NCBI GenBank assembly: GCA_016873845.1
Contig: VGVX01000024.1
Location: forward strand, 1 to 35,278
Reading direction: 5' to 3'
Origin: Ignavibacteria bacterium
GTDB lineage: Bacteria > Bacteroidota > Ignavibacteria > Ch128b
DNA: 35,278 nt
Below are positions 10,511-31,190 of this stretch, in pieces (position 1 is the first letter of the stretch; every line of letters starts with the position of its first letter). The position numbers and the translations under genes are program-made. The notes beneath the pieces are model-generated. The model saw only the letters and a list, made by a program, of their open reading frames with translations. It did no database searches and was not told where the DNA came from.

Positions 10511-13198
10511 ATGAAAAGAGTTACAATCGTTTTACTTATCATTTTTTTTGTATCTGAGAGTTATCCAATTTCTCCAGGTAAAGATGGCATCAAAATCCCC
10601 AAACATGTTAATGAATTTCATTCTATGGTTCAAAAAGAATATTTGGAGGGATACTGGGCAAAACGAATTCGTGAACGTGAAGAAATTAGGAATCAAGTAC
10701 ACAAAGATATTTTACCTAAATCCGCTTTGGTTAGAGATACAGTAAATGCTCTGACATTATTAGGAAGATACTCAGACAGCTCACCACGTTACAGCAGAGA
10801 ACAATTTCAACAGCAGCTTTTTGACGGACCAAATCCAACTGGAACTGTAACTCAGTATTATAAAGAAGTCTCTTATGATCAAATGCACTTTTCGGGATTC
10901 TGTACGAATTGGTATCAAGCTCCTGGAACGATGATGTCGTATGTAGGATCAAATAATGGACTCTCGTCTTCTGGCGGACCAAAATTCGTTTTGGATCTTA
11001 TCAAAGCAGCGGATCCGACTTTCGATTTTTCGAAATACATAACATACTACGATAATAATGGAAATCCGCGAATCAGTTTCGTAGCTGCAGTTCATACAGG
11101 TGCGGGTGCTGAAGCTGGTGCAACAAATATATGGTCTCATCGATGGAACTTCCGAATGCTGACTGGCGGACAGCCCTATGAAACAAATGATGTAGATCCC
11201 AAATCCGGTAGGAGAGTATTGATCGATGGTGACTATGCTATTCAGCCGGAGTTAGCGGGAAGAGATAATTCAATCGGTGAGTTGATAGAAATCGGTGTTT
11301 TTACACATGAATTTGGACACATTTTCGGTCTGCCCGATTTATATGACACAGACAATACATCTGAAGGATTAGGGAACTGGTGCCTAATGGCTGGTGGTTC
11401 GTGGGGTGGGAATGGCGGAAGCCCGCACACACCTGTTCACATGAGCGCATGGTGCAAACAAAAAATGGGTTGGGTTTCTGCAATTGATATATCTTCGTTC
11501 CAAAAAAGTAAAATCATAAAAAATGCAGAGGAGCATGCAGAACTTTACAGAATTTGGCGTACTGGTACAATTTCAAACGAATATTTTCTTGTCGAGAATC
11601 GGCAGAAGATCGGTTTTGATAGATTCCTATACACAGGAGGAGTATTAGTTTTCCATGTAGATGATGCAATCGGTACAAATAGAGACGAAAATCACTATAA
11701 AGTCGGCTTAATGCAAGCCGATGGAAGAAGAGATTTAAATTTTAATAGGAATCGCGGTGACGATGGAGATCCGTTCCCAGGCTCGACAAAAAATACAAGG
11801 TTTGATCTGAGTACAAATCCAAACAGTAATGATTATTCAGATTCGACAACCTTAGTTTCAGTAAGAGACATTCGTCACAGTGGAAAGGATATGATAGTCG
11901 ATTTTGATATTGGTTCAATGCCGTACGTTATGATCAAAGATTTTTCACTCACTGAAAATACAACAGTTAAGAATGGGCGCCTTGAGCAAAATGAAATCGG
12001 TAATGTTAATTTTACGTTGCGGAATGTTGAGAGTATAAATTCAACTAATACTAAATTTAAAGTTTGGACTGACGATCCGAACCTCGAATTTTTATTCAAT
12101 GAGGTAAATACAGACGTAACAGGCAAGACGGAAAAACCCTACTCGATGCATAGTGCAATCAAAGTAAAACCGAATTTTGTGAGCCGTGCAGTTTACATTA
12201 AAGCAGAAGTTGATGGGGGGGGAAGTAAATTTTCTGACAGCTTTAAAGTTGTAATTGGAATTCCAAAAATCATGCTCATATCGAAAGGAGATAAACCAAG
12301 TCTAGCCGACTATTATCAATCATCGCTTTCAAATGCATCTAAGACATTTGAATTTATTGATAGTGAACCGGGGACCTTCTATTACGGCCGCGATATTATC
12401 TTGTATCTTACAGGAAAAAATAAGGAAAATCTTTTCTCAAATGCCGAGCTTGATTCATTAGATTTATTTCTAAATCGCGGAGGAAAACTATTTTTGAGCG
12501 GACAAAATATTGCGGAATTCTTGAATGCGAATGCTCCATCATTTCTTCAAAATACATTGGGAATAAATTATTTAAAAAACGCGAGTCTGTTCGCAAATAA
12601 AGTTTACGGCATTACTTCAGATTTGTTTGGAAAGAACATCTCGACATTACGAATTAACGGAACAGAGGGAGCAGCCAACGAAACTTCGATGGATATTATT
12701 GAGAGCCGTGGAAGTTTTAATAAATCCGTCGCATTTAAAACAGATGGTCAAGATGTAACCGGAGGATGGAATACATTCCCTAACGGCGGAAAATTATTTT
12801 TCCTTGGATTTGGATTTGAAAGTATCAATAACGATGAATCTACGATAAAACGTGATAGATTAATGCAAAACATTCTAAGCTGGTTCGATCCAACAACAGG
12901 AATCGAAAATTTTGATGAACTTGATAATCTAAGTTTTCAATTAAAACAAAATTATCCGAATCCATTTAATCCAGCAACAAATATCAACTACCAAATTTCA
13001 AGTCCTAGTTTTGTAACATTGAAAATATTTGATGTTATTGGAAAAGAAGTCGCAACATTAGTTAATGAAACAAAGAAGCCTGGCAGTTATAATCATCAAT
13101 TTTCAATTTTCGATTATCAATTACCGAGTGGAATCTATTTCTACCAGCTCAGAGCAGGTAATTTCGTTGAAACGAAAAAAATGGTTTTAGTGAAATAA
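10511..13198 (+). CDS. Secreted M6-like (immune inhibitor A type) metalloprotease with T9SS sorting domain
   Basis: An 895-residue exported protein. A signal peptide (residues 1-20) is followed by a protease domain of the M6 peptidase type with the zinc motif HEFGH at 266-270 and the family extension IFGLPDLYDTD. The central region (about 465-600) looks like beta-sandwich repeats; about 590-795 includes a segment (FLNRGGKLFLSGQNIAEFL) like the glutamine-amidotransferase-fold domains often found in such proteins. The C-terminus from about residue 811 is a type A T9SS sorting domain: NYPNPFNPATNINY, then VTLKIFDVIGKEVATLV, LPSGIYFYQLRAG and the KKMVLVK end. It is expected outside the cell or on its surface, degrading protein. 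A good ribosome binding site (GAGGGAAG) precedes the ATG. Confidence 0.9.
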   Translation: MKRVTIVLLIIFFVSESYPISPGKDGIKIPKHVNEFHSMVQKEYLEGYWAKRIREREEIRNQVHKDILPKSALVRDTVNALTLLGRYSDSSPRYSREQFQQQLFDGPNPTGTVTQYYKEVSYDQMHFSGFCTNWYQAPGTMMSYVGSNNGLSSSGGPKFVLDLIKAADPTFDFSKYITYYDNNGNPRISFVAAVHTGAGAEAGATNIWSHRWNFRMLTGGQPYETNDVDPKSGRRVLIDGDYAIQPELAGRDNSIGELIEIGVFTHEFGHIFGLPDLYDTDNTSEGLGNWCLMAGGSWGGNGGSPHTPVHMSAWCKQKMGWVSAIDISSFQKSKIIKNAEEHAELYRIWRTGTISNEYFLVENRQKIGFDRFLYTGGVLVFHVDDAIGTNRDENHYKVGLMQADGRRDLNFNRNRGDDGDPFPGSTKNTRFDLSTNPNSNDYSDSTTLVSVRDIRHSGKDMIVDFDIGSMPYVMIKDFSLTENTTVKNGRLEQNEIGNVNFTLRNVESINSTNTKFKVWTDDPNLEFLFNEVNTDVTGKTEKPYSMHSAIKVKPNFVSRAVYIKAEVDGGGSKFSDSFKVVIGIPKIMLISKGDKPSLADYYQSSLSNASKTFEFIDSEPGTFYYGRDIILYLTGKNKENLFSNAELDSLDLFLNRGGKLFLSGQNIAEFLNANAPSFLQNTLGINYLKNASLFANKVYGITSDLFGKNISTLRINGTEGAANETSMDIIESRGSFNKSVAFKTDGQDVTGGWNTFPNGGKLFFLGFGFESINNDESTIKRDRLMQNILSWFDPTTGIENFDELDNLSFQLKQNYPNPFNPATNINYQISSPSFVTLKIFDVIGKEVATLVNETKKPGSYNHQFSIFDYQLPSGIYFYQLRAGNFVETKKMVLVK

Positions 13199-26747: not shown

Positions 26748-28073
26748 ATGAATTCCAAATTCACAATAAACTTTTGTTTACTGATTATCATATTTAGTTG
26801 CAGCATCTCCTATTCAGATACAACTTCTAATTGGAAAAAATTATCCACTCCCATTTCAACACACTTGAGAAAAGTTTTTTTCGTTGATTCACTTTCCGGC
26901 TGGGTTGGCGGGGACTCTGGAATTATTATCCACACAAACAACGGTGGAAATAACTGGCAAGTTCAATCAAGTGGAATCGAATCAGAGATAAGAGATATTT
27001 TTTTTCTCAATAATAGACTTGGGTGGGGAATTGCATGGAGTTATTCTGAAGAAACTCCAATCGGTTCAGTTATTCTATCAACAACAAACGGAGGGAGTTT
27101 CTGGCGCATTTCTGATTTTCCCGAAGAGAATGTTTTTTTGAATTGTATTCATTTTGTAGATTCTTCAATCGGATTTTTGGGAACTGGGAATGGAACTATT
27201 CTACGAACAATAGATGGTGGAATTAATTGGGAAAAAACTAAAATCACTACTGGTCCTTATTCTAATTTTCCAATTTTGGATTTTAAGTTTATTACTAAAC
27301 AATTCGCCTTTGCTAATGGAGGAATTCGTGATGTAGGAGGAGTGATTTGGCGAACTGGAAATTTTGGACTCGATTGGGATTCTGGACCCGTTGGACCTGA
27401 ACCTATCTTGCAAATCGATGCCATTGACTCGAACTATATTGTGGGCGTAGGAGGTGATTACGAGTTTGGAGCCGGTGTTGTAATTTCATCTGACGCTGGA
27501 ATTTCTTGGGATTATAGGTCTCTCGAAATATTTGGATTTGCACATTCTGTTTCTTTCAGAAAACCAACAGAGGGCTGGTCTACGATTGGAATTGAAAAAA
27601 AATTTTTACTAACAAGAGACTCGGCAAAAACTTGGGAAGTAATACCAACAATTGACAGTACTGCGATATATGAACTTCAATTTGTCGATTCGCTTACTGG
27701 TTTTGCAGTCGGTGAACGCGGTACTGTACTCAAGTATAAATATAAACCACCAATTGTTAATTCTATTGATGATGCCGTTTTAACTACTCCGATCGGTCAT
27801 AAATTATTTCAAAATTTTCCTAATCCTTTCAATCCCGAGACAGTTATTCGTTATCAGTTAATGGTTAATGGTCATGTTTCACTAAAAGTCTATGATATTC
27901 TAGGAAGAGAAGTGGCGACACTAGTAGATGAAATAAAAGATGCCGGCTTCTATCATTTTCCATTTTCCATCCGTCAGCTGACGGATCATTTTCCATTATC
28001 CAATGGGATTTATTTCTATCAACTTCGTGCAGGCTCTTATCTTGAAACAAGGAAGATGATTATACTAAAATGA
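26748..28073 (+). CDS. Secreted Ycf48/BNR-like beta-propeller with T9SS sorting domain
   Basis: A 441-residue exported protein. After a signal peptide (about 1-24, NFCLLIIIFSCSISYSD) come about six propeller repeats, each with an Asp-box-like turn (TNNGGNNW, TTNGGSFW, TIDGGINW, GNFGLDW, SDAGISW, RDSAKTW) and a DSLTGFAVG-like strand; this resembles Ycf48/HCF136-type and sialidase-like propellers. The C-terminus from about residue 360 is a T9SS type A sorting domain (NFPNPFNPETVIRY, VSLKVYDILGREVATLVDE, GIYFYQLRAG, KMIILK). In that domain, six extra residues are encoded by an 18-bp palindrome. The role on the cell surface is unknown. The next gene is a paralogue on the same strand. Confidence 0.85.
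   Translation: MNSKFTINFCLLIIIFSCSISYSDTTSNWKKLSTPISTHLRKVFFVDSLSGWVGGDSGIIIHTNNGGNNWQVQSSGIESEIRDIFFLNNRLGWGIAWSYSEETPIGSVILSTTNGGSFWRISDFPEENVFLNCIHFVDSSIGFLGTGNGTILRTIDGGINWEKTKITTGPYSNFPILDFKFITKQFAFANGGIRDVGGVIWRTGNFGLDWDSGPVGPEPILQIDAIDSNYIVGVGGDYEFGAGVVISSDAGISWDYRSLEIFGFAHSVSFRKPTEGWSTIGIEKKFLLTRDSAKTWEVIPTIDSTAIYELQFVDSLTGFAVGERGTVLKYKYKPPIVNSIDDAVLTTPIGHKLFQNFPNPFNPETVIRYQLMVNGHVSLKVYDILGREVATLVDEIKDAGFYHFPFSIRQLTDHFPLSNGIYFYQLRAGSYLETRKMIILK
27969..27986. repeat. 18-bp palindrome inside the sorting-domain coding region
   Basis: ATCCGTCAGCTGACGGAT is a perfect palindrome in the reading frame of the propeller protein, encoding part of the unusual SIRQLTDHFP segment. It differs at one base from the palindrome in the intergenic repeat at 31101-31118, which indicates a dispersed element rather than coding chance. 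Confidence 0.75.
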
Positions 28074-28092: not shown

Positions 28093-29373
28093 ATGAGATT
28101 AACCTGGTTATTTGTAATTTTATTTATCCTTCGAAGTGAATTCGTATTCTCCCAATCGAAGTTTTCGGCATCAAATTCTGTACTTTATTTCCTTAACGAA
28201 AATATTGGAATGGTAGTTCGGACTGACAGCTCTATAAAAGTAACTTACGACGGTGGAGAAAGTTGGATTATAAGACAATTTGACTCTCAAATAATATGTT
28301 TTGCTTTTACTAAATCTGGAAAAGGCTGGGCAGCCTCGATGTCGAATCTCTATTTTACAAGTGATACATGCAGATCATGGTCTAAAAGTACGATTGATAA
28401 TTCAACACCATTTTTCACAGTTCATTTCCTGAACGATAGCGCTGGCTTTGTTGGAAGTTATAATAAAATTCTACGCACCAGCGATAATGGCAATTCTTGG
28501 ACTAATGCATATATTGATTCGCCATATAACGTATCAATAACCAATTTCAGTTTTTTAAATGATGTTGAAGGAATTGCGACTTCTGGCTCAACGTTATTTA
28601 AAACCACAGATGGCGGCTATATTTGGTTGAAACTTCCGATAGATCTACATTCATCGTATAGTAGCTTTTATCGATCATCCTATCTATCATCCGATTTTTT
28701 ATTATTGAGCGGATATCATATATATATTGTCGCTGAAGGATTTTTATTAAAATCGACTAATGGCGGTACTTCTTGGAGTCCATATGGGAATGGACAATAT
28801 TTTAAATTTGGGATTACTGACCAGCATTTCGCTTCGCAATTAAGAGGATTGGTAACCTCTAATGGCCTTATCTATTCAACTTTAAATTCTGGAAACACAT
28901 GGGATACAATTAATGTTAGCGTCTATCGCTTTCACTTTCTTGATGAAAATTCTGCCTGGGGAATTTCTGAGACAAAAACTCTAAAAACTACTGACAGTTG
29001 GAAAACTTTTAAAGTAATTGATTCCATTTCAACCAAGGTTGAAGAATCAAATTATAGACTGAATTCATTTCAATTATTTCAAAATTATCCAAATCCATTT
29101 GGCGAAGCCATCCATTCTGGTAATCCACATACAATCATCAGCTTTCGCTTGTCAGCTATCAGTAGAATTTCATTAAAAGTGTTTGATATACTTGGGAGAG
29201 AAATTGTCACCTTAGTCGATGAAGAACTTGATGGAGGAGTTCATAATTATCCATTCTCCATTTTCAATCTTGCCCGTCAGCAGACAGGTTTTCAATTAGC
29301 TAGCGGTGTATATTTTTATCAACTGAAATCCGGAGATTTTGTAACCACGAAAAAAATGGTCCTTTTGAATTGA
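28093..29373 (+). CDS. Second secreted Ycf48/BNR-like beta-propeller with T9SS sorting domain
   Basis: A 426-residue paralogue of the preceding gene, 19 bases downstream. A signal peptide (about 1-20, RLTWLFVILFILRSEFVFSQ) is followed by propeller repeats with Asp-box-like turns (TYDGGESW, TSDTCRSW, TSDNGNSW, TTDGGYIW, STNGGTSW, NSGNTW). The C-terminal sorting domain from about residue 331 reads NYPNPF then NPHTIISFRLS, VFDILGREIVTLVDEE, GVYFYQLKSGDF and ends KKMVLLN. It has two expansions relative to its relatives: about seven residues (GEAIHSG) after NPF and about nine before the LASG turn, the second over an imperfect palindrome, CCCGTC/GACAGG, near 29273. It is likely co-transcribed with its neighbour. 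Function unknown; probably surface binding or structure. Confidence 0.85.
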   Translation: MRLTWLFVILFILRSEFVFSQSKFSASNSVLYFLNENIGMVVRTDSSIKVTYDGGESWIIRQFDSQIICFAFTKSGKGWAASMSNLYFTSDTCRSWSKSTIDNSTPFFTVHFLNDSAGFVGSYNKILRTSDNGNSWTNAYIDSPYNVSITNFSFLNDVEGIATSGSTLFKTTDGGYIWLKLPIDLHSSYSSFYRSSYLSSDFLLLSGYHIYIVAEGFLLKSTNGGTSWSPYGNGQYFKFGITDQHFASQLRGLVTSNGLIYSTLNSGNTWDTINVSVYRFHFLDENSAWGISETKTLKTTDSWKTFKVIDSISTKVEESNYRLNSFQLFQNYPNPFGEAIHSGNPHTIISFRLSAISRISLKVFDILGREIVTLVDEELDGGVHNYPFSIFNLARQQTGFQLASGVYFYQLKSGDFVTTKKMVLLN

Positions 29374-29376
29374 ATT

Positions 29377-31005
29377 TCATTTGATGACAACAAGTTTTTT
29401 TGTCGAACTGAACTTTCCTGCAGTCAACGAATACAAATAAACTCCCGAAGGTAAATTAGATGCATTAAATTCAATTTCATATTTCCCACTTGGTTTTACT
29501 TCATCCACGAGAGTTATAATTTCTCTTCCTAATAGATCGTAGACTTTTAGTTTTACTTTCTCACTTCTTGATACTGAATATTCTATTCTAGTAGACGAAT
29601 TGATCGGATTAGGATAATTTTGAAAGAGCATGAAATCTTCAATCTGGATTTCATCATTAATAGATAAGCGAGTTAGATCAATTTTCGTTGACCAAACTTG
29701 GTAAATTCCCGTCGAATTATCCATCCAAACCGGCCACAAAATTTTTCTTGAAGATGTTAATCCAATATTATCACCTTGGTAACCTTGGCCAAGTCCGCCA
29801 ATTGGAGCAGGCTTGAAATTATGATCACTTATTTCATAATCAATCCAAGTATCCCCGCCATCTGTTGATCGGGAAAGAAATACACCTGACGAATCGTTAG
29901 TTGTATTTCTATCGTCATAATAGATAATATTTACACCGCCGTTATCATCAACATGAATTGCAGGAAAGAATTGAGTCTTGCCAGTGTTTACTGGATCTTG
30001 ATTGACTCGAATGCCTGCCGACCAAGTATTACCGCTATCCGTAGATCGTCTCAAAATTATGTCCGGATCATTACCGGCTGGTGATAAATTCTTTTCAGAA
30101 GTAACGATGTAAATCCAACCGCTCCGAATCCCTTCTGAATTATCAACAGCAATTCTCGGCAAACCATTTACTCTAATATTCTGTTTCGAGGAAAGCACTC
30201 CTTGTATTCCGCTTACATCAAACGCTTTTTCTTTTACATTCCAATCTATCCCGCCGTTTGATGAAGATGCAACTCCAACGTGCACTTCACTAAATGGAGA
30301 AACACTCGTCACTCCAGCCCAGCAAATAAATACGTGTCCTTGTTTATTAGTTGAAATATCTCCTCCTGCGCATCTTTGCGGAGGATTGTTTACCTGCTTT
30401 GGTGCTGACCACGTTGATCCGCCATTTGTAGTAAAAGAAGTCATAATAGGATAAGGAGGGATAAATTTCACCCATGTTGTGTATGTTCGTCCGTAAAATA
30501 GACTTGCAGTATTAACATCGCTGATTGTTGCGGCTCGCTCCAAATCATCGGTTGAAATATTTTTTTGATTCGACCAAGTTAAACCCATATCAGTCGAGAA
30601 ATGAGAGTAAAGTCCATAAAACGGAGTACGCCCTAAACGAGTAATGATGAATGTACCGTTTTTGTCAATCGTAATTCCAGGATCGCCGCCGTGAAAAAAA
30701 ACGTTAGCACCGTTGCAAGTATCACTTCCATACCAGCTGAATCCGAAATTCGTTGTAACGTAAATTCCTTCACTCAAAAAAAAGCTTGGAGTAAAACTTA
30801 TGGTATTGGCAGTTGAAAATAAAATATCTGGATTTGAAGGATGAACAGTAATAAATACTTCTGTTTGGGTTGTACTGCTGGGGAAAATCCGGAAATTATT
30901 TGAAATTGCTTGTGCCGATAGATTAGCAGCAGTTACCAGACAAAATAAAGATTGTAAACCAATAACTACCGTACCTAGAAATTTTTTCTGATGATGATTT
31001 TTCAT
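29377..31005 (-). CDS. Secreted sialidase-fold (BNR repeat) protein with T9SS sorting domain
   Basis: A 542-residue exported protein with signal peptide (about 1-32, ending LSAQA). Five Asp-box turns of the form S-x-D/N-x-G-x-T/D-W are visible: STDMGLTW, TTNGGSTW, SSNGGIDW, STDSGNTW and STDGGDTW. This indicates a six-bladed sialidase-like propeller, but the arginine triad and nucleophile of true sialidases could not be confirmed, so no activity is claimed. The C-terminus from about residue 459 is a compact T9SS sorting domain (NYPNPINSSTRIEYSV, VKLKVYDLLGREIITLVDE, NASNLPSGVYLYSL, KKLVVIK), useful as an unexpanded reference for the other three. It ends three bases from the convergent propeller gene. 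Confidence 0.87.
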   Translation of the reverse strand: MKNHHQKKFLGTVVIGLQSLFCLVTAANLSAQAISNNFRIFPSSTTQTEVFITVHPSNPDILFSTANTISFTPSFFLSEGIYVTTNFGFSWYGSDTCNGANVFFHGGDPGITIDKNGTFIITRLGRTPFYGLYSHFSTDMGLTWSNQKNISTDDLERAATISDVNTASLFYGRTYTTWVKFIPPYPIMTSFTTNGGSTWSAPKQVNNPPQRCAGGDISTNKQGHVFICWAGVTSVSPFSEVHVGVASSSNGGIDWNVKEKAFDVSGIQGVLSSKQNIRVNGLPRIAVDNSEGIRSGWIYIVTSEKNLSPAGNDPDIILRRSTDSGNTWSAGIRVNQDPVNTGKTQFFPAIHVDDNGGVNIIYYDDRNTTNDSSGVFLSRSTDGGDTWIDYEISDHNFKPAPIGGLGQGYQGDNIGLTSSRKILWPVWMDNSTGIYQVWSTKIDLTRLSINDEIQIEDFMLFQNYPNPINSSTRIEYSVSRSEKVKLKVYDLLGREIITLVDEVKPSGKYEIEFNASNLPSGVYLYSLTAGKFSSTKKLVVIK

Positions 31006-31091: not shown

Positions 31092-31190
31092 CCATTCTGA
31101 ATCCGTCAACTGACGGATGAAGAATCTAACGATGCAATTTTCAGATTTTTTTAGATGTTTCGTCCCGATTCCTCGGGACTCAACATGACA
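31092..31190. repeat. Intergenic palindromic repeat element (CATTCTGAA...CAACATGACA type)
   Basis: The gap between the TonB receptor gene and the sialidase-like gene holds a structured stretch. CATTCTGA is followed by an 18-bp dyad ATCCGTCAACTGACGGAT (31101-31118), then GAAGAATCT (31119-31127), a spacer, AGATGTTTC (31153-31161), a hairpin GTCCCGA/TCGGGAC with a 4-base loop (31162-31179) and CTCAACATGACA. The arrangement resembles REP/MITE-like intergenic repeats I recall from Ignavibacteria and Bacteroidota genomes. No open reading frame of use lies in it. Copy number cannot be judged here. Confidence 0.6.

Follow-up and report, generated by a model that had tools for sequence, protein, structure and literature searches.

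How does a short palindrome that also lies between genes come to be read in frame inside a protein secretion signal? The question is raised by a gene in a 35,278-nucleotide stretch of an Ignavibacteria genome (the window), in which a perfect 18-bp palindrome, with a 16-bp core here called E, falls within a T9SS sorting domain (Table 1). With a probability of roughly 0.7, we propose that a small palindromic repeat resembling SDR or REP elements entered loops that were coded by heptads and tolerant of insertions, and that paralogous sorting domains subsequently came to share the loop, probably through recombination.

Table 1. Positions of the features discussed, in the window unless another locus is named.
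Feature	Position	Strand	Evidence or source
7-bp array without palindrome, same sorting-domain loop of the M6 peptidase gene 10511-13198	13087-13123	+	TRF
Host gene, 441 aa: YCF48/sortilin-like propeller and C-terminal T9SS type A sorting domain	26748-28073	+	ORF; PF14870, PF18962; TIGR04183
Palindrome-bearing T9SS sorting domain (CTD)	27816-28064	+	TIGR04183 match, protein residues 357-439
Second 7-bp array (GTTAATG), beta2-beta3 loop of host domain	27857-27872	+	TRF
Left part of 7-bp array, CATTTTC CATTTTC CA	27954-27969	+	TRF period 7, 27954-27970
18-bp perfect palindrome ATCCGTCAGCTGACGGAT; core E = TCCGTCAGCTGACGGA at 27970-27985; encodes IRQLTD, putative beta5-beta6 loop	27969-27986
Right part of 7-bp array, CATTTTC CATTATC	27987-28000	+	Sequence
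Sorting domain of next gene; different or degraded palindrome in same loop (NLARQQTG, site 29274-29287)	29086-29361	+
Separate insert GEAIHSG, PNPF loop of next gene's sorting domain	about 29101-29121	+
Sorting domain of sialidase-like neighbour; short turn FNASNLPSG, insert-free comparison	29386-29616	-
Intergenic 36-bp composite repeat, CATTCTGA - E variant - TGAAGAATCT; 10 genome copies	31092-31127
Partner hairpin, exactly same architecture as 36-bp composite, different tip	31155-31186
E-bearing partial tRNA-like copies	L031 1447-1640 (C29); L001 1440-1560 (C3)		This genome

The palindrome is exact at its coordinates and recurs with a single mismatch in the intergenic dyad at 31101-31118, as the first-pass annotation had described. 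Its placement in frame within a sorting domain also holds: the codons ATC CGT CAG CTG ACG GAT belong to the ORF of the host gene and lie within the TIGR04183 match. In a profile search the domain scores 35 bits against TIGR04183 (cut-off 23), which makes it a member of a family with 142 matches in this genome, and 25.4 against PF18962, slightly under the cut-off of 27. The annotation had further put the added length at about six residues, and the loop is indeed longer by that number than FNASNLPSG of the sialidase-like neighbour (15 versus 9 residues), but the palindrome alone does not make up the whole of the difference. The extra length sits within the CATTTTC array, and compared to heptad-type loops of the same genome the gain is four residues. 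These residues are not ancestral and conserved, since full-length orthologues from two other genera have short turns (FNAQNLSTG in G003, 44% identity; FYPEIKNSG in G005, 41%). An Rfam scan returned tRNA as its sole match, and a plasmid search gave distant sorting domains only.

Short palindromes are common and this one is only 16–18 bp long, so that its presence might be taken as a meaningless coincidence; we give that account practically no weight. Shuffles of the window are expected to contain none, the reversed pattern has no sites compared to 41 for E, and E recurs at one position of one domain, results which together refute a chance origin.

E is widespread and sporadic, and has multiplied in this genus. 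Allowing up to two mismatches, the 16-mer occurs at 41 sites in this genome and 179 in one genus-mate (G001), compared to 0–1 in genomes of the same family, and the reversed control has no sites in any of these genomes; a 14-mer of E, matched with the same tolerance, has 44 sites in this genome versus 4 for its reversed control. Many of the copies lie in other intergenic regions, where the first-pass annotation would have had to find none for its reading to fail. Exact copies are absent from 186 of 197 genomes of the class and number at most three in any outside the genus. In one variant, TCCGTTAGCTAACGGA, both arms have changed and the palindrome is still perfect. A scan of GTDB genomes with a 19-mer, in a pattern that fixes CA...T around E, found at least 119 external stretches, mostly in Bacteroidota, Neomarinimicrobiota and other phyla; among the matches listed none lies in a sorting domain, and E is often at the tip of terminator-like hairpins. 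One such hairpin with an E tip, AAAAAGCCA-E-TGGCTTTTT, is found in many Bacteroidota (L209-L327, e.g. L212, L250, L257, L285).

Eight of the 41 copies in this genome lie inside ORFs of at least 150 aa, and all eight occupy one and the same T9SS sorting-domain loop, compared to about 0.1 expected under uniform placement (142 loops of 54 nt); one of them (29274-29287) is a diverged or different palindrome. Alignment of the sorting domains and mapping of their palindromes, as the first-pass annotation had suggested, places a palindrome in this loop in at least eight domains besides that of the host gene. IRQLTD, or IHQLTN as its decayed form, is encoded in six of the 142 domains, and NDPS(A/T)DG, the same DNA in another frame, in three more; the majority have no E-derived loop. 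IRQLTD and DPSADG correspond to the two open frames of E; the third contains TGA and was never seen. In the genus-mate the same loop contains E or a one-base variant, read as IRQLTE, IRQLTK, IRQLTDDSRL or VRQPTD, and also other palindromes, TCCGCCAATGGCGGA as NSANGG and TCCCGACAGGTCGGGA as NPDRSGQ. The further domains, the second frame, the other palindromes and the nesting in 7-bp repeats described below are additions to the first-pass annotation.

The constant reading frame of the loop, together with the pattern FS-I-[RH]QLT[DN]-H/P shared by six domains, could suggest a peptide gained once by an ancestral domain, inherited by duplication and conserved because RQLTD has a role in secretion. 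We consider this most improbable, as the same DNA is read as DPSADG or DPSTDG in three other domains and also lies between genes, and most of the 142 domains do without the motif. Five copies of E are identical over 18 nt, and across the ten pairs that they form (a comparison made without C16) none of the 60 E codons differs, whereas among flanking codons that specify a shared residue 138 of 368 do (approximately 38%). Identity of E at every codon between flanks that differ so much indicates DNA history rather than selection on the peptide, and the two reading frames and the missing synonymous change largely rule out conservation at the peptide level.

Several other features of the sorting domains were observed. 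A third palindrome-like insert (MPSGRQVLN or MPGDRQVLN) occupies the same putative beta5-beta6 loop at C70:2188, C74:2531, C74:5229 and C56:1425 of this genome. The PNPF loop contains a GEAxxSG insert (GGCGAAGCC...TTCTGG) in four sorting-domain matches (window 29101-29121, C18:17045, C51:6618 and C72:11271), two of which fall within a duplicated stretch: C18:15404-26783 and C51:4977-16356, 11.4 kb each, contain the same series of sorting-domain genes with equal spacing and scores, and represent either a recent duplication or assembly redundancy. The sorting domain at C9:40911-41144 is interrupted by an in-frame TAA (DEV*EPG) and probably belongs to a broken cargo gene.

The association of E with 7-bp repeats is not restricted to the window. 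Six of the 41 copies in this genome lie in a tandem 7-bp context, as is characteristic of SDRs (at least 11/14 matches at lag 7, compared to 0.02 copies expected), and intergenic copies are likewise found inside heptad arrays. Under the same strict threshold (at least 11/14 matches), the loop that holds E is heptad-coded in 15 of 122 domains, compared to none for a control window of the same domains; its units include TCAATTC, CATTTTC and GATTAAC, in domains with and without E. Among 95 domains of the genome, 21 have such an array in the beta2-beta3 loop as well. In this genome, some two dozen domains have a putative beta5-beta6 loop that is coded by 7-bp repeats. We propose that E multiplied in the genus chiefly between genes, often within 7-bp repeats or at other hairpins' tips, and that it became nested in the array of this loop. 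In-frame combinations would be easily reached, since two of the three frames of E are open and each change in the number of 7-bp copies shifts the frame by one.

Flanking sequences were compared for a set of 67 copies, de-duplicated for similar flanks and drawn from this genome and the genus-mate. Direct repeats of at least 4 bp flank ten of these, compared to 0.68 expected from permuted flanks (for example TTCA-E-TTCA, TCAA-E-TCAA and ACTAA-E-ACTAA), and inverted repeats of at least 5 bp also flank ten (1.89 expected from permuted flanks). E is found nested in itself, as TCCGTCA-E-GACGGA, with the tetraloop AGCT down to one base. In two partial tRNA-Ala-like copies E occupies the D-loop where the adjacent intact gene has GCT (AGCTCA-E-GGGAGAGC compared to AGCTCA-GCT-GGGAGAGC). 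More generally, partial tRNA-Ala-like and tRNA-Arg-like copies lie beside intact tRNA genes, with three D-loop bases replaced by E or by E-in-E. An extension of our proposal, which we put forward as speculative and rather unlikely, is that E represents a class of 16-nt mobile hairpins that hit either 7-bp arrays, leaving a 4-bp duplication, or hairpin tips, where they would take the place of some 3 nt of the loop, as seen for the tRNA-like D-loops and for E within E. In combination with the arrays, such hairpins would continually rewrite the sorting-domain loops of the genus, so that the export signal would be diversified by repeat dynamics at the DNA level and not by point mutation.

E also forms part of longer repeats. 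The intergenic composite in the window folds into 5 bp, a 2x2 internal loop, 7 bp and a 4-nt loop, and the start of its partner hairpin, AGATGTTTCG, follows most other copies of the composite. A longer family, ATAACGGC...TTTTTAAGCCGCCGCCCA-E-CAGCAATGCCGC, has E near its middle (L005, L023, L193, L197 and L207) and is possibly a recombination site or structured repeat. As candidates for an integron attC site, the E copies in L005, L023, L197 and L207 have complementary segments without nesting like that of attC arms.

The first-pass annotation had concluded that a mobile or copy-prone palindrome apparently entered the secretion signal without breaking it. E is indeed dispersed, copy-prone and free of stops in several such loops; the conclusion does not extend to an entry into the window gene itself, because the part of the CTD upstream of E resembles paralogues and the loop or a larger cassette may have been exchanged. 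At the DNA level this upstream part shares 85% identity with C74:2531, where the insert is a different one, and 83% with C32, where it is the same; the part downstream is closest to C46 and again C74:2531. With such a mosaic of paralogues, exchange of loops or cassettes between them is likely, and the window copy, possibly acquired in this way, need not be an insertion in situ. No true empty site was found at this locus, the genus-mate having no full orthologue and the others being only 41–44% identical. The best near-empty paralogue, C48:5380 (YHFPFSILHYPL), differs by 12 nt from C74 and the window (YHFPFSIRQLTDHFPL), which would fit a gain of 19 nt (E with a short duplication) and a loss of 7 nt (one heptad).

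It is possible, though we think it the less probable course, that the window loop derives wholly from gene conversion or cassette exchange, with E inserted once or twice in an ancestor and now immobile. The mosaic just described points in this direction, as do the 41 identical nucleotides around E in two C56 domains and the scatter of E on a domain tree built without the loop, a poorly resolved tree on which E needs eight changes for nine rows, at least two of them forced. However, the same loop contains different heptad contexts, frames and palindromes in both genomes, which suggests more than one event. Exchange on this scale refines our preferred explanation rather than opposing it: after the entry of a repeat into heptad-coded loops, the E-bearing loop would have appeared later in several paralogues, probably via recombination between sorting domains.

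As to what might have moved E, one candidate is a REP-associated tyrosine transposase (RAYT), of which E would be the REP. This genome has one RAYT (NF047646), and G001 has 16 Y1_Tnp matches as well as more copies of E, with one IS200-type gene among four E-like sites; the last is a lead only. Given how densely E occurs, chance would provide about 1.5 such neighbours. We nevertheless judge it very improbable that a RAYT is responsible, because the RAYT of this genome has its own hairpin (CTGTCACCGAC...GTCGGTGACAG type) on both flanks and no E-like site in the 2.3 kb examined, its homologue in G001 shows the same hairpin pattern with its sole E-like site more than 1 kb away, and the IS200 genes have CCCCAGC hairpins. 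A RAYT is therefore not supported as the mobiliser: its genes are flanked by other hairpins, with no E within 1 kb. At the RAYT and IS200-type loci of the two genomes, no mobilising enzyme or transposase linked to E was found. Both genomes of the genus have a RAYT gene flanked by a hairpin family of its own (L396 on C71 of this genome; L395 on C154 of G001).

For the insert to persist, the loop would have to accommodate it. In an AlphaFold model of moderate confidence (pLDDT 76.7), the residues encoded by E (I69-D74) form part of a short helix (residues 69-75) between strands 61-68 and 81-89. The model has six strands of at least three residues, compared to the seven-stranded beta-sandwich of type A CTDs, and its Foldseek matches are weak (E-values of about 0.002-0.02), including the CTD chains 8glk_D, 8qb1_A and 8gl8_D and PorU 6za2. 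We read the loop as probably beta5-beta6, since the preceding strand follows the conserved LGREV strand (beta-4 in CTD nomenclature) and two strands only remain. In an RgpB mutant with 11 residues in place of 3 in the beta5-beta6 loop (+8), export, cleavage and activity were unchanged (PMC11285876). The E loop seems to have no part in recognition by the translocon, and the additional residues, a short helix in the model, would be tolerated. The natural insertions agree with the engineered one, and would mark the beta5-beta6 loop as free for inserts.

Among known repeats, the SDRs of cyanobacteria are reportedly hairpin-forming repeats of about 20 nt, scattered through the genome, often in tandem 7-bp repeats and nested within one another; they are not known to have an enzyme, and their host range is narrow. 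E answers to this description as a hairpin-forming repeat of less than 30 nt with many dispersed copies (41 and 179), nested and lying in heptamer arrays. It differs from SDRs in its sequence, its phylum, its length of 16 bp and its repeated occurrence in frame in a protein domain.

Rickettsia palindromic elements (RPEs; Ogata 2000) are found both between genes and in frame in protein genes, where they are tolerated, and also in RNA genes (PMC2229807). E resembles them in being palindromic, intergenic and present in frame in protein genes. Unlike RPEs, which are 105–146 bp long and occur in many unrelated proteins (PMC2229807), E measures 16–18 bp and in this genome is confined to a single loop in a single domain family. 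CGTC-tagged REPs, reported in Chlorobi and Bacteroidetes, are short hairpins that lack a transposase of their own (PMC3733652); they are marked by an unpaired CGTC or TGTC tag, a stem that starts with AT and a CCA-like tail. The composite at 31092-31127, which starts with (T/C)CATTCT, may be related to them, with E as its tip. It has the form ATTCT-GA-E-GA-AGAAT, with (T/G)TC before most copies and a tail CTA, and its stem and loop lengths differ; E alone has neither these features nor an unpaired CGTC tag or CCA tail. At the protein level, the CTDs of PorU and PorZ have a beta-hairpin in Lbeta5beta6 that is harmless to secretion when grafted into RgpB (PMC11285876). They share with the E loop extra residues at the same place, which derive from repeat DNA in the one case and form a protein hairpin in the other.

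Our literature text search found no report of palindromes in T9SS sorting domains. Provided that E and the 7-bp arrays are mobile to this day, the 100–140 sorting domains per genome would provide a test system for the copying of a tiny element with no known enzyme. We file E apart from the SDR, RPE and RAYT-REP families as a distinct small palindromic repeat, the SDRs being compared by description only. Translated repeat DNA is known from Rickettsia, as long elements dispersed among unrelated proteins. In the present case one small palindrome recurs, and several further palindromes with it, in a single loop of a secretion signal.
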